Positions 17,353 to 26,440 of a DNA stretch of 64,000 bases are shown piece by piece. A program made the translations under genes and the position numbers. The notes beneath the pieces were generated by a model. That model had not been told where the DNA came from and did no database searches. It saw only the letters and a program-made list of their open reading frames with translations. Position 1 is the stretch's first letter; each line of letters starts with the position of its first letter. Source of the DNA: Olivibacter sp. SDN3 (GTDB lineage Bacteria > Bacteroidota > Bacteroidia > Sphingobacteriales > Sphingobacteriaceae); assembly GCF_014334135.1 (NCBI RefSeq), contig NZ_CP060497.1, positions 1 to 64,000 of the forward strand. Direction: 5' to 3'.

Positions 17353-19143
17353 TTAGAAGCAATATTTGTTAGCCTCGATTAACCGTTTGGCCACATTTTG
17401 GCGTGCTTCTTTAATATTAAAAGGGGCCACCTTAGTAAACCTTCTCAGGCCTACCAGCATCATCTTCAATTCGTCTCCTTCTGCAAAAGAATTTAGAGCC
17501 TCTTTGCCCGATAGATAAACCTTATCAACTGTTGTCTGCAAGCAAATACGGGCCATATCCAACTGCTCTTTCACTTCTTCCGTACCTTTGATCTGCACCA
17601 ATTTTTCCACCCTGAGTAACGTCGATTCTGCGATATAAACCCCTCCAATGATGTCAGCAATGTTCATCAATATCTCCTGTTCTTTTTGAAGAGTCATCAT
17701 CAACTGTTGAACAGCGGCACCCGCCACTAAAAGACCTGCTTTTTTAAGATTAGCAATAATTCTCTTTTCATAAGCAAACAAGGTATCATCAGCATCTTCA
17801 AAATCAGGTATAGCCAATAGTTCCCCCGCGACAGCCTGGGCAGGGCCCATTAGATCCAACTCCCCTTTCAGAGCACGCTTTAAAAGCATATCAACAATTA
17901 ATAATCGATTAACCTCATTTGTTCCCTCAAAAATTCTATTTATTCTAGAGTCTCGGTATGCGCGTTCCATAGGAGCTTCTGCCGAATACCCCATACCTCC
18001 GTAAATTTGTACACCTTCATCTACAATATAATCAAGCATTTCAGACCCCCATACTTTTAAAATAGCACATTCTATCGCGAACTGTTCTGTTGACTTTAAC
18101 TTTGCTTGGGCAGGCTCCATCCCACTTGCTACCAAAGCATCGTATGCGTCGTCTATATTTTGGCCAGCTCGGTATGCAGCGCTCTCAACAGCAAAATTTC
18201 TAGCTGCCATCTCAGCGAGTTTATAACGTATTGCACCAAATTTTGAAATAGGCAGTTTAAATTGTACCCTTTCATTTGCATACTTTAAGGCTTGTGTAAT
18301 AACCTTCCTAGACGAGCCTATCGCAGCTGCACCCAATTTTATCCTGCCGATGTTAAGAATATTTACAGCTATTTTAAATCCGTTCTCGCGTTCAGAGAGC
18401 ATATTTTCTACTGGCACTGGGCAATCGTTGAAAAACACCTGACGAGTAGACGACCCCTTGATTCCTAACTTATGTTCTTCGGGATTCATGGTAACACCGC
18501 CAAAAGCTCGCTCCACAATAAATGCCGACAAATTTTTATCGTCGTCAATTTTGGCAAAAACAATAAATATGTCTGCAAATCCGCCGTTAGTGATCCACAT
18601 CTTCTGACCGCTAAGTAGATAATGGGTCCCTTCAGCATTTAATTTTGCACTTGTTCTTCCGCTATTAGCATCAGAACCTGCATTAGGCTCAGTTAAACAA
18701 TATGCAGCTTTATACTCGCCAGTGGCCAGTTTGGGGATATACCGCTGTTTCTGCTCGGCATTCCCGTAATATAGAATGGGCAATGTTCCAATGCCCGTAT
18801 GAGCCGACAGTGCCACAGCAAAAGAATGTCCGGCACCGACAGCATCTGTGACGAGCATGGAAGTGTTGAAGTTCTTACCAAAACCTCCAAACTCTTCGGG
18901 TATAGACACACCTAAAATACCGAGTTCTCCTGCTTTATTAAGTAAAAGCTCCATAAGGCCCTCCTCTTGAGCGTCTATCCGATCAAGGTTAGGATTTACC
19001 TCCGAGTCCAAAAAGTCTTCACAGGTCTTCTTGATCATTAGCTGCTCCTCGTCAAATTCCTCTGGAATAAAAATATCTTGGAATTGTGTTTCTTTAATAA
19101 CAAACTCTCCTCCTTTAATGCTTATTTTTTCCATGCTTTCCAT
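17353..19143 (-). CDS. Acyl-CoA dehydrogenase, FadE type of the fadNAE operon
   Basis: FAD enzyme that catalyses the first oxidation step of fatty-acid beta-oxidation. In 596 residues it has the N-terminal helical, middle beta and C-terminal helical domains of the family, including AAYCLTEPNAGSDANS and WITNGG for FAD and substrate contacts, and RIFEGTNEVNRLL with the catalytic-region glutamate. After about residue 430 a helical extension makes it longer than the usual 380-residue dehydrogenase, matching the length class of Bacillus subtilis FadE (about 594). It is the last gene of the marR-fadN-fadA-fadE run, 39 bp beyond the thiolase. Confidence 0.94.
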   Translation of the reverse strand: MESMEKISIKGGEFVIKETQFQDIFIPEEFDEEQLMIKKTCEDFLDSEVNPNLDRIDAQEEGLMELLLNKAGELGILGVSIPEEFGGFGKNFNTSMLVTDAVGAGHSFAVALSAHTGIGTLPILYYGNAEQKQRYIPKLATGEYKAAYCLTEPNAGSDANSGRTSAKLNAEGTHYLLSGQKMWITNGGFADIFIVFAKIDDDKNLSAFIVERAFGGVTMNPEEHKLGIKGSSTRQVFFNDCPVPVENMLSERENGFKIAVNILNIGRIKLGAAAIGSSRKVITQALKYANERVQFKLPISKFGAIRYKLAEMAARNFAVESAAYRAGQNIDDAYDALVASGMEPAQAKLKSTEQFAIECAILKVWGSEMLDYIVDEGVQIYGGMGYSAEAPMERAYRDSRINRIFEGTNEVNRLLIVDMLLKRALKGELDLMGPAQAVAGELLAIPDFEDADDTLFAYEKRIIANLKKAGLLVAGAAVQQLMMTLQKEQEILMNIADIIGGVYIAESTLLRVEKLVQIKGTEEVKEQLDMARICLQTTVDKVYLSGKEALNSFAEGDELKMMLVGLRRFTKVAPFNIKEARQNVAKRLIEANKYCF

Positions 19144-19182: not shown

Positions 19183-20355
19183 TTACAATATTTCAAATAT
19201 TCCAGCAGCTCCCTGTCCGGTTCCCACACACATCGTTACCATACCATATTGCTGTTCACGTCGCTTCAGCTCGTTAAACAGTTGAACACTCAATTTAGCA
19301 CCAGTGCAGCCCAATGGATGCCCTAAGGCAATAGCTCCTCCATTCACATTGATGATCTCTTGATTTAACCCGAGCTCCCTAACAACAGCTAAGGATTGCG
19401 AAGCAAAAGCTTCATTCAATTCAATCAGTTGAATATCATCTTGCTTTAGACCAGCTTGCTTCAAAGCTTTTGGAATAGCTTCTATAGGACCTATTCCCAT
19501 TATTCTTGGTGGAACACCTGCTACACCATAACTCACTAGTCTAGCAATTGGCTCAACGTTTAACTCTTTTAGCTTTGTTTCAGAAACGACCAAAACGAAA
19601 GCTGCCCCGTCTGATGTTTGCGAGGAATTACCGGCGGTAACACTGCCCCCCGCAGCAAAAACAGGTTTTAATTTAGCCAACAACTCCACATTGGTATCTG
19701 CTCTCGGTCCCTCATCTGTATCAACCACATATTCTTTATCCACTATTTTTCCTTCATTGATATAATTTTCTTTGATCGTTATAGGAACGATATCGTCTTT
19801 AAATTTACCGCTCTTTATAGCAGCCAATGCCTTTTGATGCGATTGAAAAGCAAATTCATCCATATCCGTGCGACTCACCTTAAACTCTTTGGCAACAGCC
19901 TCCGCTGTAAGCCCCATATTCCAATACCAATCCGGGTGGGTTTTAGCAACCGTTGGGTTTGGCACGAGCTTCCATCCGCCCATTGGCATTCCAGACATTA
20001 CTTCGACACCACCAGCGACAATAATATCTGCCATACCGTTTTTTATTTTAGCGACCGCAGTGGCTATCGTTTCCAGTCCCGATGCACAGTAGCGATTAAC
20101 TGTAACACCCGGAACTTTATCTGTATCTAAAGACATTAAAGAGATCAATCTTGCCACGTTGAGCCCTTGCTCCGCTTCCGGAGTAGCATTTCCCACTATC
20201 ACATCATCTATTTGCGCTTTATCAAGATTGGGGATAGAATCAACTAAGCGTTTAATAACATGCGAGGCTAAATCATCTGCACGTGTAAAGCGAAAGCCAC
20301 CCTTAGGGGCCTTACCCACAGCAGATCGGTAACCAGCTATAATATATGCTTCCAT
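19183..20355 (-). CDS. Acetyl-CoA C-acyltransferase (3-ketoacyl-CoA thiolase), FadA type
   Basis: Thiolase that cleaves 3-ketoacyl-CoA to acetyl-CoA and a shortened acyl-CoA. The nucleophilic cysteine lies in VNRYCASGLE (Cys90 from the chosen start), and the active-site His and Cys lie in GGAIALGHPLGCTGA and CVGTGQGAAG. The start was set at the ATG at 20355 (MEAYIIAGYRSAVGK, 390 residues), where the fold begins; an ATG at 20412 would add 19 unrelated residues and approach the end of the upstream gene at 20422. Second enzyme gene of the fad operon. Confidence 0.95.
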   Translation of the reverse strand: MEAYIIAGYRSAVGKAPKGGFRFTRADDLASHVIKRLVDSIPNLDKAQIDDVIVGNATPEAEQGLNVARLISLMSLDTDKVPGVTVNRYCASGLETIATAVAKIKNGMADIIVAGGVEVMSGMPMGGWKLVPNPTVAKTHPDWYWNMGLTAEAVAKEFKVSRTDMDEFAFQSHQKALAAIKSGKFKDDIVPITIKENYINEGKIVDKEYVVDTDEGPRADTNVELLAKLKPVFAAGGSVTAGNSSQTSDGAAFVLVVSETKLKELNVEPIARLVSYGVAGVPPRIMGIGPIEAIPKALKQAGLKQDDIQLIELNEAFASQSLAVVRELGLNQEIINVNGGAIALGHPLGCTGAKLSVQLFNELKRREQQYGMVTMCVGTGQGAAGIFEIL

Positions 20356-20421
20356 AAGTTTAATGTTAAAATGTAAGTTTTGTACTACATCGTGTATACA
20401 TTCTTGTAGCACATAATAATA

Positions 20422-22851
20422 TTAATTCCGTAGGGGCTTTCCTTTCGTCAACATATGTTGAATACGTTCTAATGTTTTTCGTTCAGCAGCTAATGCCAAG
20501 AATGCCCTACGTTCCAAATCGAGCAAATATTGTTCAGATACTTCCGTTGGCGACGACAAATTCCCACCACACATTACCCATCCTAATTTTTCAGAAATTT
20601 TTTGGTCGTGCTCACTAATATAATTACCCGATTTCATAGAATTTGCACCGACATATACAATACCTAAACCTTGGTTCCCTAAAACTTTGATATCATCTCG
20701 TTGAGCTGGTTGCGTATATCCCTTATCTGCTAACGCTAAGGCCTTTGATTTGGCATCTGCTAACAGTCTGCTACGGTTCATGGAAATCGCATATTTACCT
20801 TTTTCCAAATAACCAAGCTCATAAGCCTCAACAGCAGAAGTGCTTACTTTCGCCTGACCGATGGTCAGGAATCTATCCTTCAAAACATTTTGTGTTATCT
20901 GATCATTTTTATACTCATCAGATGCACGCAAGGCGAATTCCTTCGTCCCCCCCCCACCGGGTATAACTCCCACTCCAAACTCTACCAAACCCATATAAGT
21001 TTCCGCATGCAACTGTACAAAATCAGCGTGTAAAGCAAACTCGCATCCACCCCCAAGTGTTAAGTTAAAGGGCGCCACGACTACCGGTATACTAGAATAA
21101 CGTAAACGCATCGAGGTGTCCTGGAACATTTTCACAGCCATATTCAATTCGTCATAGTCTTCTTCTACAGCCATCATAAAAATCATACCTATATTCGCCC
21201 CAGCTGAAAAATTTGCCCCGTCATTTCCAATGACCAACCCTTTATAATCTTTTTCAGCTATATCAATAGCCTTATTGATACCCTGAATAACGTCGCCACC
21301 AATGGTATTCATTTTCGTGCGAATTTCAGCATTAATAATACCATCGCCCAGGTCTATAATAGAAACCCCGCTATTCTTCCACAACGTTTTTGTTTCGCGT
21401 AGGTGATCCAGTATAATAAACTCTTCTGATCCCGGAATCGTTTTATAATTTTTGCTTGCCTGATCATAGAATTTCCTTTCACCATTTTCGATTTGATAGA
21501 AACTCTCATGCCCGCTCTCCAGCATTTCTATCACCCATGGAGCTACTTCTCCCGTTTGGCCAGGCAACCGTTTCTCTTCACCCTTAATTTTTTCTATTGT
21601 ATCTCTAACTCCTAAGGCATCCCATACTTCAAATGGTCCGAATTCCCAACCAAATCCTGCGCGCATGGCGTCGTCGATACGAAAAAAGTCGTCCGTAATT
21701 TCAGGTACTCGCTTCGAAACATACTCAAACAACGGGTAATGCATGGCCTTAAAGAGAATTGCAGCCTTGTCATCCCCCTGTTCATAAACTTTCATTCTTT
21801 TAGCTAAATCATCTATTTTTTTTGTTTCCTCCAGCGTCGACGATTTCACCTTTTCTTGTTTTCGATAAGTTAGTTGCTTTAAGTCAAGTACTAATATCTC
21901 ACTGTTACCTTTTTCATCTTTCTGTTTCTTGTAAAAGCCTTGTTTTGTCTTCTCTCCCAGCCACTTTTTTTCCGCCATCTCTAATACGTAACCAGGCAAC
22001 TTAAAAATATCACGGGCCTCATCGTCGGGAACATTTTCATATAATCCATTGGCCACATTAACCATCGTATCTAAACCTACCACGTCCGATGTACGAAATG
22101 TTGCCGACTTTGGATGTCCCATCGCCGGACCAGTATATTTATCTACCTCTTCTACAGTTAAGTCCAGCTTCTCTACTAAATGGGTTACAGCTAACATAGA
22201 ATAAACACCTATTCTGTTTCCAATAAAAGCAGGTGTATCCTTACAAAGCACCGTCGTCTTACCTAAGAATTTATCCCCATATTCCATTAAAAAGTCGACC
22301 ACCTCATGATTGGTATGCGCTGTAGGAATAATCTCAAGTAAGCGTAAATAACGAGGAGGATTAAAAAAGTGTGTCCCACAAAAATTGTGTTTGAAATCAT
22401 CGCTTCTATCTTTGATCATTAAGTGAATAGGTATTCCAGAGGTGTTAGAAGTGATCAGAGTTTCCGGCTTTCGGTATTTTTCCACTTGTTCAAAGATTTG
22501 CTTTTTTATCTCCAACTTTTCTACGACCACTTCTATCACCCAATCGGCCTGTGCTATTTTCTCCATATCATCTTGAAAATTGCCCGTCTCGATCAACTTA
22601 ACATTTTTCTTACTGAACAACGGGGAAGGATTCGACTTTACGGCTGCATCTAGCGATTGCTTGACGATTCTGTTGCGAACGACTTTACTTTCCAAGCTAA
22701 GCTTTTTCGATTCCTCGTCAGCGGTGAGCTCCCTAGGAGGAATATCGAGAAGCAGCACAGATACACCTATATTTGCAAAATGACAAGCTATACGCGACCC
22801 CATAACACCAGAGCCAAGTACTGCCACTTTTTTAATCTTTCTGTTCATCAT
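20422..22851 (-). CDS. 3-hydroxyacyl-CoA dehydrogenase/enoyl-CoA hydratase, FadN type
   Basis: A bifunctional beta-oxidation protein of 809 residues. The order of domains is NAD-binding 3-hydroxyacyl-CoA dehydrogenase first (VLGSGVMGSRIA, about 11-22, with HFFNPP near the catalytic His), its C-terminal domain in the middle, and enoyl-CoA hydratase last (about 490-700, with the NFSAGANIG oxyanion-hole segment and a glycine-rich ECH core). That order is the reverse of Escherichia coli FadB and is the one in Bacillus subtilis FadN (about 789 residues). With the fadA- and fadE-like genes behind it the order equals fadNAE. It follows the marR gene by about 60 bp on the same strand. Confidence 0.95.
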   Translation of the reverse strand: MMNRKIKKVAVLGSGVMGSRIACHFANIGVSVLLLDIPPRELTADEESKKLSLESKVVRNRIVKQSLDAAVKSNPSPLFSKKNVKLIETGNFQDDMEKIAQADWVIEVVVEKLEIKKQIFEQVEKYRKPETLITSNTSGIPIHLMIKDRSDDFKHNFCGTHFFNPPRYLRLLEIIPTAHTNHEVVDFLMEYGDKFLGKTTVLCKDTPAFIGNRIGVYSMLAVTHLVEKLDLTVEEVDKYTGPAMGHPKSATFRTSDVVGLDTMVNVANGLYENVPDDEARDIFKLPGYVLEMAEKKWLGEKTKQGFYKKQKDEKGNSEILVLDLKQLTYRKQEKVKSSTLEETKKIDDLAKRMKVYEQGDDKAAILFKAMHYPLFEYVSKRVPEITDDFFRIDDAMRAGFGWEFGPFEVWDALGVRDTIEKIKGEEKRLPGQTGEVAPWVIEMLESGHESFYQIENGERKFYDQASKNYKTIPGSEEFIILDHLRETKTLWKNSGVSIIDLGDGIINAEIRTKMNTIGGDVIQGINKAIDIAEKDYKGLVIGNDGANFSAGANIGMIFMMAVEEDYDELNMAVKMFQDTSMRLRYSSIPVVVAPFNLTLGGGCEFALHADFVQLHAETYMGLVEFGVGVIPGGGGTKEFALRASDEYKNDQITQNVLKDRFLTIGQAKVSTSAVEAYELGYLEKGKYAISMNRSRLLADAKSKALALADKGYTQPAQRDDIKVLGNQGLGIVYVGANSMKSGNYISEHDQKISEKLGWVMCGGNLSSPTEVSEQYLLDLERRAFLALAAERKTLERIQHMLTKGKPLRN

Positions 22852-22912: not shown

Positions 22913-23359
22913 TTATTTGGAGGATTCATCCTTCGGAATGTAATTCATAGCTAGGTCATTTAAACGTTTCAACATATCAATAAGTTTTGTTCTTTCTACA
23001 TCTTTAATGTGATCGTCAAAATAATTATTGAAATCTCTTACGATATTCTTCGCTATTTCCCGCTTTGCTACCCCGAGCGGTGTAAGAAACACCCTTACTG
23101 ATCGCTTGTCCTGCGTATCGGCTTGCCGATAAATCAACCCCTGCCCTTCCATACCGTTCAATATGCGAGATAGGCTAGTTGACTTGACTCCAAGCAATCC
23201 AGCTATCTGCGTAACTGCAGTTCCCTCCTTTCGAATATTGATCAGTAGATATCCTGTAGCTTGGGTAATACCATGTTTTGACGCTAAATGATTATATTTA
23301 TTGGCAATTGATTGCCATGCTATTTTTAAATAATAGTCGATTGTGTTATCTTGACTCAT
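22913..23359 (-). CDS. MarR-family transcriptional regulator, probable fad repressor
   Basis: A 148-residue winged helix-turn-helix protein. The core (about 30-105) has the recognition-helix region VTQIAGLLGVKSTSLSRI and the wing with DKRSVRVFLT, followed by dimerisation helices. It is the first gene of the fadNAE-like unit. A palindrome, TACTATGCTTGCATAGCA, overlaps its own promoter just upstream of the ATG, and a nearly identical site lies at the fadD promoter. MarR repressors usually bind such 16-20 bp palindromes, so autorepression and control of the fad genes, released by acyl-CoA or a fatty acid, is the likely role. The ligand is an inference. Confidence 0.9.
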   Translation of the reverse strand: MSQDNTIDYYLKIAWQSIANKYNHLASKHGITQATGYLLINIRKEGTAVTQIAGLLGVKSTSLSRILNGMEGQGLIYRQADTQDKRSVRVFLTPLGVAKREIAKNIVRDFNNYFDDHIKDVERTKLIDMLKRLNDLAMNYIPKDESSK

Positions 23360-23363
23360 AATT

Positions 23364-23381
23364 TACTATGCTTGCATAGCA
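23364..23381. promoter_or_regulatory. Putative MarR operator at the marR-fadNAE promoter
   Basis: TACTATGCTTGCATAGCA holds perfect 6-bp arms CTATGC and GCATAG around a 2-bp centre. It overlaps the last two bases of the -7 element and the expected transcription start. It shares 16 of 18 bases with the site at 26423-26440. Confidence 0.7.
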
Positions 23382-23410
23382 AATCTACTATTTAATTTTA
23401 AAAATATCAA
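23380..23410 (-). promoter_or_regulatory. Promoter of the marR-fadNAE unit
   Basis: On the minus strand TTG (23410-23408), a 20-nt spacer, and TAGATTTG (23387-23380) match TTG-N19-21-TAnnTTTG. The predicted start falls inside the operator, leaving a leader of about 15 nt. Confidence 0.65.
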
Positions 23411-23544
23411 GGGTTATGATTTTAAATATCTGCAGATATGCTACTTCAAAGGTCAACAGCTTATTAATGCAAATTATATAGCCCGAACGATCAACTAAAA
23501 CCTCGGGATGAAAAACAAATCATCCAAGTTTGCAAAAGAATTTA

Positions 23545-23552
23545 TAAGTTTG
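23545..23552 (+). promoter_or_regulatory. -7 promoter element of the cupin_8 gene
   Basis: TAAGTTTG, 29 bp before the GTG start at 23582. Confidence 0.45.
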
Positions 23553-23581
23553 CAGTTAGACGTATATTAACCTATAGAGCA

Positions 23582-24448
23582 GTGCAACTAAAAAAAACAG
23601 ATAAAAGGTGTGGATTAAGCTCAAAAGAGTTTCTCGATCAATACTTGGATAAAGGTATTCCTGTCATTTTGGAAGACTTTGTTAGTAAAGATAGCCCGGC
23701 CTTTACTAAGTGGAACTATAGTTATTTCAAACAAATTGCTGGAGATCACATCATCGAGTTGTATGGCAAGGAAGATACTTCCAATGATCGGGCCAAGAGT
23801 GCTCCGGTAGCAAAAATGAAATTCTCAGAGTACCTGGATCTTATTGAACGGGAACCAACAGATTTAAGAATATTTCTTTTCAACTTAATAAAATTAAAAC
23901 CTGAGTTAAACAACGACATTATCTACAACGATCTAACTGGAGGCAAGATCATTAAATGGTTACCATTTTTGTTTTTTGGTGGAGAAGGCTCCAGTACACG
24001 TAATCATTTTGACATTGATATGTCTCATGTATTTATCACCCAATACAAGGGAATTAAGAAAATATGGCTTTTCCCCTTAAATCAATCGGATCTCATGTAC
24101 AGGCTACCCTATAACTTCCATAGTATAGCCAACCTCAAAAATCCCGATTATAGTAAATACCCCGCACTTAAATATCTTAATGGTTACGAAGCTGAAATCC
24201 ACCCGGGCCAGACCTTAGTCATGCCTTCAGGGTACTGGCACTACATACAGTATGTAACCGAAGGATATTCTATAAGTGTCAGGGCACTTCCTTCGAAAAG
24301 AATGGATAAGTGGCGGGGATTTAGAAACTTAGTTATAACCCGTCATTTCGACAATACGATGAGGAAAATCTTTAAAGATAGGTGGTATCAATACAAAATA
24401 GAGCGGGCTATGGATCGCGCAAATCGTGCACTTAAAAAAATTAAATAG
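23582..24448 (+). CDS. JmjC/cupin_8-type Fe(II)/2-oxoglutarate-dependent oxygenase
   Basis: A 288-residue protein of the cupin-like (JmjC-related) hydroxylase family. A cupin_8 fold spans about 10-235, with the metal-binding HxD pair in NHFDID (His142, Asp144) and the distal His220 in MPSGYWHYIQY, so the Fe(II) triad is complete. The C-terminal 50 residues are basic and helical. The start is GTG at 23582; no ATG fits. Family members hydroxylate proteins or RNA, or act in natural product pathways; the substrate here is unknown. It lies between the divergent marR-fad unit and the convergent fadD gene, but has no operator copy at its own promoter. Confidence 0.85.
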   Translation: MQLKKTDKRCGLSSKEFLDQYLDKGIPVILEDFVSKDSPAFTKWNYSYFKQIAGDHIIELYGKEDTSNDRAKSAPVAKMKFSEYLDLIEREPTDLRIFLFNLIKLKPELNNDIIYNDLTGGKIIKWLPFLFFGGEGSSTRNHFDIDMSHVFITQYKGIKKIWLFPLNQSDLMYRLPYNFHSIANLKNPDYSKYPALKYLNGYEAEIHPGQTLVMPSGYWHYIQYVTEGYSISVRALPSKRMDKWRGFRNLVITRHFDNTMRKIFKDRWYQYKIERAMDRANRALKKIK

Positions 24449-24486
24449 TCTGTGGCGAATAATTTCCGCCGCAGGCCTTTGTTTTT
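24449..24486. terminator. Terminator between cupin_8 and fadD-like genes
   Basis: CTGTGGCG (24449-24456) pairs with CGCCGCAG (24466-24473), with one G-U pair, and a T run follows at 24478-24486. It serves the plus-strand gene best. Confidence 0.75.
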
Positions 24487-24505
24487 TATGAATTGACTTT
24501 ATATG

Positions 24506-26296
24506 CTAGTCGTCATCTGAAGCTTTTACCGTATCTTCTTCTTTGTAGATCTCTTCAATGATCTCTTTATTTTTTTCTAGGATCACCTTTCTTTTTAGAC
24601 TCAATTTTGGGGTTAACTCGCCCTCATCAATACTCCATTCCTTTGAAAGCAATGTGAATTTTTTTACTTGTTCCCAATGTCCAAAATCACTGTTAGCTCG
24701 ATCAACAACTCCTTGAAATTTATTCAACACTTCTTTGTTTGCCACAAGTTCCTCTTTAGAATTACCTGTAATGCCCTTCTTCTCCGCCCATTTTTTCAAG
24801 TCATCGAAGGAAGGAACAATTAAAGCAGATGGAAATTTTTTTCCTTCACCAACAACCATAACTTGCGCTATGAGCGTAGACTCCATGAATTTATTCTCTA
24901 AAACCTGCGGAGCAACATATTTACCGCCAGTTGTCTTAAACATTTCTTTCTTTCGATCAGTAATTCTCAAAAAACCATCTTTAGTTAACTCTCCGATATC
25001 TCCTGTTTTAAAATAACCTTCGCTATCAAAAATTTCGGCTGTCGCCTCATCGTTTTTATAGTATCCCTTTGTAACGTTTGGACCTTTACATAGAATTTCA
25101 CCGTCAGCTGCTATCTTCACCTGAACGGATTTCAACAACTTTCCTACTGAACCAAACATTAATCCATTAATCTCTAAATTATTTACCGCAATCACGGGGG
25201 AAGTCTCTGTTAATCCATATCCTTCCAACACGGGTATACCTGCTCCCCAAAATATACGTGCTAACCGTTCTTGAAGAGCTGCTCCACCGCTAATGATAGC
25301 AACAATGTTGCCTCCGAGAGCCTCTCTCCATTTCTTAAAAATCAGCTTACGTGCTATAGCTAATTTTATCCTATAAAAAAACCCATTCTTACCCGGCTCC
25401 TGAAATCCCAAACCCAGATCAAGCGCCCAAAAAAATAATTTTCTCTTTATTCCTGTTAAAGCGGCTCCTTTTGCCACAATTTTATCATAAACTTTTTCTA
25501 GTACACGCGGCACGGTGGTGAAACCATTAGGTTTCACATCATTTATATCGGCCACAATAGTGTCCATACTCTCTGCGTAATAAATCGATATCCCTTTGTA
25601 GTAATATAGATAAACCACCATACGCTCAAATATATGGGACAGAGGAAGAAAACTAATGGCTTTCAAGTAATTAGCTGGGAGCAGATGCCCACAATCACTG
25701 AAATTACTCACTAGGTTTCTGTGAGACAGATGAACGCCCTTTGGCTTCCCTGTTGTTCCAGAAGTATAAATTAAGGTTAGTAGGTCATCCTCAGATACTG
25801 CATCCCTATACGGGTGAAGGTCTACGTCTAGATCCCGCCCTTTTTCCTCGATTTCTTTCCAGTTGGAACTCCCGTCGATTTCATCGAAAACATAAACAGG
25901 GACACCTATATCTTTATTTTGTAGCGATTTGTTAATTTTATCATATAGCTCCTTTGTACCAACAAAAGTCATCTTAACTTCTGCGTCTTCTATAATATAG
26001 TCTAGATCACTTTCAGAAAGTGTCGGATAAAGGGGAACAATTGCTGCACCGATTTGATTTACGGCAAAATCCACGAAGTTCCACTCCGGTCTATTAGCAG
26101 ACATCATGGCCACTTTATCTCCTTTTTTTATGCCTAAGTCAAGCAAGCCCTTGCTTAAGTTATTAATTATTTCTAAAACACTTTTTGTATCATATGTTGT
26201 CCATTTGCCGTTTGCTTTGCCAGCAACCATGACTTTTTGAGCATGATGCTGCTGATAGTATTCCAGCAAATCGAAGACACGTTTAACGCTTTCCAT
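24506..26296 (-). CDS. Long-chain fatty acid-CoA ligase, AMP-binding family
   Basis: Activates fatty acids to acyl-CoA with ATP, feeding beta-oxidation or lipid synthesis. The 596 residues belong to the long-chain ACSL/FadD15 class: the P-loop-like LIYTSGTTGKPKGVHLSHRN (about 177-196), the linker motif EGYGLTETSPV, and YFKTGDIGEL followed by ITDRKKEMFKTTGGKYVAP in the C-terminal domain. Length and the gate-like insertion agree with ACSL-type enzymes; no membrane segment is needed. A palindrome almost identical to the marR operator lies at its promoter, which ties it to the fad operon. Exact chain-length preference is unknown. Confidence 0.94.
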   Translation of the reverse strand: MESVKRVFDLLEYYQQHHAQKVMVAGKANGKWTTYDTKSVLEIINNLSKGLLDLGIKKGDKVAMMSANRPEWNFVDFAVNQIGAAIVPLYPTLSESDLDYIIEDAEVKMTFVGTKELYDKINKSLQNKDIGVPVYVFDEIDGSSNWKEIEEKGRDLDVDLHPYRDAVSEDDLLTLIYTSGTTGKPKGVHLSHRNLVSNFSDCGHLLPANYLKAISFLPLSHIFERMVVYLYYYKGISIYYAESMDTIVADINDVKPNGFTTVPRVLEKVYDKIVAKGAALTGIKRKLFFWALDLGLGFQEPGKNGFFYRIKLAIARKLIFKKWREALGGNIVAIISGGAALQERLARIFWGAGIPVLEGYGLTETSPVIAVNNLEINGLMFGSVGKLLKSVQVKIAADGEILCKGPNVTKGYYKNDEATAEIFDSEGYFKTGDIGELTKDGFLRITDRKKEMFKTTGGKYVAPQVLENKFMESTLIAQVMVVGEGKKFPSALIVPSFDDLKKWAEKKGITGNSKEELVANKEVLNKFQGVVDRANSDFGHWEQVKKFTLLSKEWSIDEGELTPKLSLKRKVILEKNKEIIEEIYKEEDTVKASDDD

Positions 26297-26414
26297 AGCA
26301 AAAAAATTTGTTATAACATTCGGTTTATTCAGTTACACTTTAAAGGTAAACAAAAAAGGGGGTACTCTGTGTTGTTTTTAAGATAAAAAAATCTTCCTTT
26401 ATTCAATTAAAATC

Positions 26415-26422
26415 CAAAAATA
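26415..26422 (-). promoter_or_regulatory. -7 promoter element of the fadD-like gene
   Basis: TATTTTTG on the minus strand fits TAnnTTTG. A TTG is found 16 nt upstream (26441-26439), shorter than the ideal spacing. The palindrome at 26423-26440 fills the spacer. Confidence 0.5.
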
Positions 26423-26440
26423 TACTATGCATACATAGCA
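26423..26440. promoter_or_regulatory. Putative MarR operator at the fadD promoter
   Basis: TACTATGCATACATAGCA matches the marR operator at 16 of 18 positions and has the arms CTATG and CATAG. It lies between the predicted -33 and -7 elements of the fadD-like gene, and 76 bp upstream of the -7 element of the divergent beta-barrel gene. Confidence 0.7.

Follow-up and report, generated by a model that had tools for sequence, protein, structure and literature searches.

The marR-fadNAE locus and its predicted operators

During our analysis of the first 64,000 nucleotides of contig NZ_CP060497.1 of Olivibacter sp. SDN3 (the whole 64-kb stretch is hereafter the window) we followed up an initial annotation according to which a MarR-family protein controls both its own operon, marR-fadNAE, and a nearby fadD gene through a shared palindrome. 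The genes and predicted control elements concerned are as follows.

17353–19143, minus strand: fadE acyl-CoA dehydrogenase, 596 residues (NF058590 FadE, 792 bits, exceeding the cut-off of 600)
19183–20412, minus strand: fadA-like thiolase (Thiolase_N/C)
20422–22851, minus strand: fadN-like fused 3-hydroxyacyl-CoA dehydrogenase/enoyl-CoA hydratase, 809 residues (Pfam 3HCDH_N, 3HCDH, ECH_1)
22913–23359, minus strand: MarR-family regulator, 148 residues, first gene of the operon and proposed repressor (PF01047, 42 bits)
23364–23381, no strand assigned: predicted operator 1, TACTATGCTTGCATAGCA, 4 bp upstream of the marR ATG and over the predicted marR-fadNAE start
23380–23387, minus strand: predicted -7 box of the marR promoter, TAGATTTG, overlapping operator 1 (consensus TAnnTTTG, from the available text of PMC9723704)
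24506–26296, minus strand: fadD-like long-chain acyl-CoA ligase (AMP-binding), 596 residues (PF00501, 246 bits)
26415–26422, minus strand: predicted -7 box of the fadD promoter, TATTTTTG, read from the sequence
26423–26440, no strand assigned: predicted operator 2, TACTATGCATACATAGCA, in the fadD promoter, directly 5' of the predicted -7 box

Pfam and NCBIfam profile matches bore out the gene identities given in the initial annotation for marR-fadNAE and fadD. The top NCBIfam model for the fadN-like protein was Staph_FadB (575 bits, under the cut-off of that model), and the true start of the fadA-like thiolase is probably the ATG at 20355, with relatives starting MEAYIIAGYR. A Cupin_8 gene divergent from marR (23582–24448) stays between marR and fadD in Olivibacter, and is present in Olivibacter sp. 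XZL3 too.

The regulator has the MarR winged helix (PF01047, 42.2 bits against a cut-off of 24.6; PF12802, 38.2 bits against 27), and at E 0.001 it matched just MarR and other winged-helix models, with no GntR or TetR domain among them. No named MarR equivalog of NCBIfam scored above its curated cut-off, the best being Saro_0803 (45 bits, cut-off 200). An AlphaFold model built with 33 sequences (pLDDT 90) has the MarR fold, with MepR, SlyA, MarR and CouR as the nearest structures. Across 33 relatives there is no variation at S62, L63 and R65 of the predicted recognition helix or at D84, R86 and V88 of the wing, which fits a constant operator core.

The two palindromes do lie ahead of the two transcription units, TACTATGCTTGCATAGCA at 23364–23381 and TACTATGCATACATAGCA at 26423–26440, and share 16 of 18 bases as annotated; at three or fewer mismatches the window holds no third site (the four rows returned were these two sites on both strands). 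Shuffling the window 100 times gave a mean of 0.20 matches, a figure that is partly circular, as the pattern was built from these two sites, and the independent test is therefore the remaining genome and its relatives. The promoter placement annotated for marR was right, with the box TAGATTTG at 23387–23380 (minus strand) and the operator over the predicted +1; a palindromic operator across its own promoter is a mark of the MarR family, read here from sequence only. For fadD, where the operator had been placed between a -33 and a -7 element, the operator does abut the box TATTTTTG (26422–26415), but the -33 element is harder to make out: the closest TTG is just 16 bases from the box. The fadD site also has two mismatches relative to the refined consensus TAYTATGCWWGCATARTA.

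The palindrome in Olivibacter genomes

For the genome scans we used the refined 18-bp palindrome TAYTATGCWWGCATARTA, with the reversed motif as control, and compared the window's genome (G000) with O. domesticus (G001), O. jilunii (G002) and Olivibacter sp. XZL3 (G004), the nearest named relatives, and with G003. A loose pattern allowing one mismatch in ACTATGNNNNCATAGY was rejected, as its 35 rows contained fewer hits than the control (14/21 against 27/28), and 14 of 22 fetched loci carried the site within coding sequence; a second looser search returned 10 matches against 11 in the control. The signal split from the control only once the TATGC/GCATA arms were fixed.

With at most one mismatch, the 6.12-Mb window genome contained five palindrome sites against one for the control, preceding marR-fadNAE, the acyl-CoA dehydrogenase gene acd, an EtfD-like gene, an outer membrane protein (OMP) gene and a DUF2147 gene. 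The counts were 5, 5, 5, 6 and 0 in G000 to G004 in that order (control 1, 0, 0, 0 and 0), and all 21 sites in the four fad-bearing genomes were at gene start regions of putative targets: marR (4), acd (4), EtfD-like (4), OMP (3), DUF2147 (3), fadD (1), etfB (1) and a DUF4442 thioesterase-like gene (1). An automatic check placed three of the 21 inside coding sequence (that of acd in G001 and those of EtfD-like and DUF4442 in G003), as the open frame extends to an upstream alternative start; in these cases the ATG is probably downstream of the site. Sites with two or three mismatches added fadD in G000, G002 and G003, OMP in G003 and DUF2147 in G001. Since the control was also populated at two mismatches (sites/control 8/5, 10/3, 9/5, 8/2 and 2/0 in G000 to G004), such weaker sites were credited solely where sister species share the site at the same gene. 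Across species, pairwise identity was 88% for the sites and 45% for their 25-bp flanks, a comparison favoured by best-match choice and omitting the fadD row of G003, whose site lies beyond the 160 bp taken. The scan of the genome and its relatives found the motif enriched at fatty-acid genes and extended the annotated targets to acd, EtfD-like, OMP and DUF2147 and, in relatives, to etfB and FadL.

The palindrome follows the MarR protein

Among 121 genomes of the family, 91 had a MarR orthologue (all at E ≤1.8e-55, with no weaker match down to 1e-15), and FadN (E 1e-150) was also found in 91, a different set. The site was present in 86 of the 91 MarR-bearing genomes compared with 1 of the 30 lacking MarR, with totals of 319 sites and 1 site, respectively (reversed control 3 and 2). 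When the genomes were divided by both proteins, the site occurred in 78 of 82 with FadN and MarR (279 sites, control 2), 0 of 9 with FadN only, 8 of 9 with MarR only (40 sites, control 1) and 1 of 21 with neither (control 2). Within genus g2, G005 has MarR and 7 sites whereas G029 has no MarR and no site; in genus g4, G068, without MarR, also has none. G013, which likewise lacks MarR, has a single site, in coding sequence. This co-occurrence is our strongest evidence, and suggests that the palindrome belongs to this MarR and not to another fatty-acid regulator.

The locus of marR itself was surveyed in the phylum, where 54 of 296 genomes (26 of 140 genera, seven families, all in the window's class) had a MarR match at E 1e-12. 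Counting sites with at most four mismatches to TACTATGCWWGCATAGTA within 220 bp upstream, a site preceded marR in 55 of 55 listed loci with fadN near, against 1 of 7 without (G001, G002 and G004 being counted twice). The core was found before marR in six of the seven families (f1, f3, f4, f8, f9 and f10); the seventh, f7 (G164), was covered by a whole-genome scan for TDNTATGCNNGCATANHA rather than at its marR locus, and that scan found no palindrome site. Tandem operators 36–37 bp apart stand before marR in several genera (L116, L122; G016:C17:64989/65026, G033:C8:42614/42651, G049:C10:17363/17400, G060:C2:126060/126097 and G078:C6:4746/4782), and operator pairs are 83 and 78 bp apart in G131 and G394.

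An alternative is that some other regulator travelling with this MarR reads the palindrome, while MarR controls something else. Each of the five Olivibacter genomes does have a MarR paralogue (second match, 25–28% identical), G004 keeps its MarR without close sites, and three genomes of genus g15 have sites elsewhere and none before marR. However, the sites track this MarR family-wide, including among fadN-bearing genomes and within g2 and g4, and a site before marR in all listed loci with fadN near is a usual pattern of autoregulation. We consider a second regulator unlikely, and attribute the palindrome provisionally to the MarR encoded beside it.

Placement of the operators in promoters

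For the -7 box we took the consensus TAnnTTTG, positioned at -12 to -5 (available text of PMC9723704). We sought it from -30 to +40 of the site in 116 site–target pairs with distinct surroundings (the window's fadD site, with its two mismatches, was not included) and found it on the target strand in 67 compared with 7 on the other strand, four sites having two boxes. In 53 of the 67 pairs a box fell at offset -6 (31), 16 (10) or 26–27 (16). All 31 at offset -6 belong to marR in the window's family, and those at 26–27 to marR of other families (13) and acd (3). Relative to the predicted start, these offsets put the operator centres near +2, -20 and -30, about two turns and one turn apart.

It could be supposed that MarR activates the fad genes, as activators do exist in the MarR family (available text of PMC5487221), and three etfB sites (L208, L213, L220) have the box at offset 38–39, with the operator centre near -42. 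The three main offsets instead place the operator centre within the polymerase footprint, so repression is favoured by the predicted geometry; activation appears improbable, and we retain repression by MarR as our reading.

Candidate targets beyond the family and beyond fad genes

A class-level scan of 40 hand-chosen genomes found TDNTATGCNNGCATANHA in 18 of 22 MarR-bearing genomes (58 sites, control 5) against 4 of 18 lacking MarR (4 sites, control 1). The latter were G126, G242 and G265, with one coding-sequence site each, and G378, with one before etfB; the assembly of G378, in 370 contigs, may have missed MarR, or the gene may be truly absent.

We fetched 100 regions from listed site places (the family list showing only part of the family sites, and L248 and L249 chosen as marR without a site) and classed a target as core where it had a blastp match (E 1e-6) to an Olivibacter reference, a second group being assigned by hand. 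The 51 sites of 50 family loci included 27 at core fatty-acid genes (marR among them) and 6 at other acyl-CoA or listed genes. In 45 class loci, 51 sites comprised 30 core, 11 second group, 5 other, 2 coding and 3 without a gene (29 of 50 core when G378 is left aside). Some core thiolases (31–35% identical) and acyl-CoA dehydrogenases (46–48%) are homologues, not orthologues. The second group comprised FadL, a CoA transferase, an acyl-CoA carboxylase, a methylmalonyl-CoA-mutase-like enzyme, a flavin oxidoreductase whose domain order we take to be that of FadH, KASIII-like, nitronate-monooxygenase-like, SDR and GMC enzymes, ilvD and OMP. In genus g15 (loci L123–L125 and L179–L199), the sites of G063 and G072 precede CoA transferase, carboxylase, mutase-like and thiolase genes, and marR is beside fadN in G120, judging by coordinates.

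The EtfD-like protein has 4Fe-4S domains, matches PDB 9ojn (E 1.9e-43) and has a CCG-domain partner gene 3' of it. The code 9ojn occurs once in a paper on mycobacterial EtfD (available text of PMC13083937), and beta-oxidation in Mycobacterium tuberculosis requires EtfD (available text of PMC8593149). The likeness concerns the target and not the regulator, and the Olivibacter version differs in comprising two separate proteins, one with the 4Fe-4S domains and one with the CCG domain.

The OMP target is an OMP_b-brl protein, of a family of unknown function. The DUF2147 gene (L080:2519-2953 and orthologues) has an operator 45–72 bp upstream in four Olivibacter species, and these operators may tie this unknown family to lipid use. 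At ilvD, a candidate target, a half-degenerate form of the palindrome with one weak arm is in the leader gap of 4 of 5 Olivibacter genomes (L254, L255, L257, L258; G000:C1:2912445-2912462), adjoins a conserved ACCGTATACC.AATTAGGTTTTAGTC block in three loci (L254, L255, L257), and persists in G004, a genome without FadN, EtfB or OMP matches.

Weighing the evidence

Olivibacter sp. XZL3 (G004) offered a natural experiment. Here fadNAE and fadD are absent beside marR; no match was found to FadN (E 1e-150), EtfB (1e-20) or OMP (1e-10), the search not extending to fadD elsewhere in the genome; and palindrome sites at one or fewer mismatches number zero. Its MarR is intact and 74% identical to that of the window (L035:6001-6438). 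Because OMP is missing where the pathway is missing, the lipid link of OMP has independent support.

Several observations weigh against the proposed MarR repressor of fatty-acid degradation. G004 retains an intact MarR without the pathway; of its two 2-mismatch sites, one precedes ilvD and the other is where a transporter-like gene starts. Four genomes with both FadN and MarR (G041, G067, G076, G106) had no site at strict matching, and the two of these that we inspected have a weaker site before marR (L115, L111). In the three g15 genomes examined (G018, G039, G053), marR lies away from fadN with no palindrome before it. Eleven of the 51 family sites precede other genes, 3 are coding and 4 have no gene within 250 bp. 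In 49 of the 116 pairs there was no TAnnTTTG box, including 14 of 14 for EtfD-like, 4 of 5 for OMP and 11 of 15 for etfB. We rejected etfB as a target in the window's genome, there being no site in G000, G001 or G002; it does count as a target in G003, and 14 class-level sites also precede it, one of them in G378, where MarR was not found. The Fisher p of 9e-10 within FadN-bearing genomes ignores shared ancestry, as do the geometry counts, many of the 53 boxes being in related sequences that are not independent, and best-match picking biases the site-versus-flank comparison.

That the two window sites are a chance likeness or a dispersed repeat is scarcely credible: A-T rich palindromes are common and the looser searches (14/21 against 27/28; 10 against 11) did no better than their controls, but strict matching found 319 sites against 3 control sites in MarR-bearing genomes, at the same target genes in four species despite diverged flanks.

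Proposed mechanism and relation to known regulators

We conclude that a dimeric MarR, encoded first in marR-fadNAE, very probably represses a fatty-acid regulon through the 18-bp palindrome TAYTATGCWWGCATARTA, and that acyl-CoA probably relieves this repression. The self-regulated fad regulon of the initial annotation has gained computational support from the enrichment of sites, their tracking of MarR, orthologous promoters with diverged flanks, promoter placement, and occurrence in six families. Gene content, sites, conservation and dependence on MarR across genomes were computed directly, as was a recognizable promoter place for about half of the sites.

In Olivibacter the MarR dimer would bind the palindrome in the promoter of its own operon and in those of fadD, acd, the EtfD-like ETF:quinone oxidoreductase, OMP and DUF2147; in relatives its targets would also include etfB, FadL, additional thiolases and other genes of acyl-CoA metabolism. 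Without fatty acids, bound MarR would block initiation by RNA polymerase, its own gene included. Imported fatty acids would be converted to acyl-CoA by FadD, and acyl-CoA or a derivative would then release the dimer (a precedent being CouR, available text of PMC4737184), allowing all components between uptake and the quinone pool to be made in concert. Once the substrate was burnt, the autoregulated operon would go back to repression. We infer DNA binding by this MarR, repression rather than activation, and the ligand; the regulon indicates that acyl-CoA is probably the inducer.

How fatty-acid degradation is controlled has been worked out in detail for Proteobacteria and Bacillus. FadR regulates beta-oxidation genes and is relieved by acyl-CoA, and belongs to the GntR family in Escherichia coli and to the TetR family in Bacillus. 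The proposed control by the window MarR resembles FadR in its acyl-CoA-relieved regulation of beta-oxidation and differs in protein family, its matches being to MarR and winged-helix models only. Among MarR proteins, FabT is a regulator of fatty-acid synthesis whose action acyl-ACP strengthens (available texts of PMC13046290, PMC9083066 and PMC5487221); the window MarR, in contrast, adjoins degradation genes and is not in a synthesis cluster. CouR of Rhodococcus is a catabolic repressor with a CoA thioester ligand, acting on p-hydroxycinnamate genes (available text of PMC4737184). Chains named CouR, listed with no organism, were among both the fold matches (6c2s) and the sequence matches (6c28, E 9.7e-13) of the window protein, which differs in its target genes and shares 24% identity with 6c2s when the folds are aligned; a CoA-thioester ligand for it would follow from its regulon only.

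In Flavobacterium psychrophilum, beta-oxidation genes go up with fish mucus and plasma (available text of PMC9723704); the strings "marr" and "fad" do not occur in the main text of that paper. Among the best-matching titles and abstract openings listed from the open-licence literature, none described control of beta-oxidation by a MarR protein in Bacteroidota. Catabolic operons repressed by MarR proteins are known already, as are fatty-acid repressors that sense acyl-CoA, and as far as those titles and abstract openings show, a MarR protein as a beta-oxidation repressor of Bacteroidota would be a new combination.

The system gives a ready handle: a single protein, an 18-bp site and, within one genome, six predicted promoters. 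The regulon would also link DUF2147 and OMP_b-brl, both families of unknown function, to lipid use. It would appear to be an undescribed on/off control of fat breakdown common to many environmental Bacteroidota. We lean toward the broader view that aerobic Bacteroidota generally use this MarR to repress fatty-acid degradation, as a FadR in function that is unrelated to the known FadRs; it would sense acyl-CoA and jointly command uptake through FadL or the barrel OMP, activation by FadD, beta-oxidation and the branch from ETF to quinone; in some genera it would command a wider acyl-CoA economy (CoA transferase, acyl-CoA carboxylase, methylmalonyl-CoA-mutase-like enzyme and ilvD), and DUF2147 and OMP would be lipid-related.

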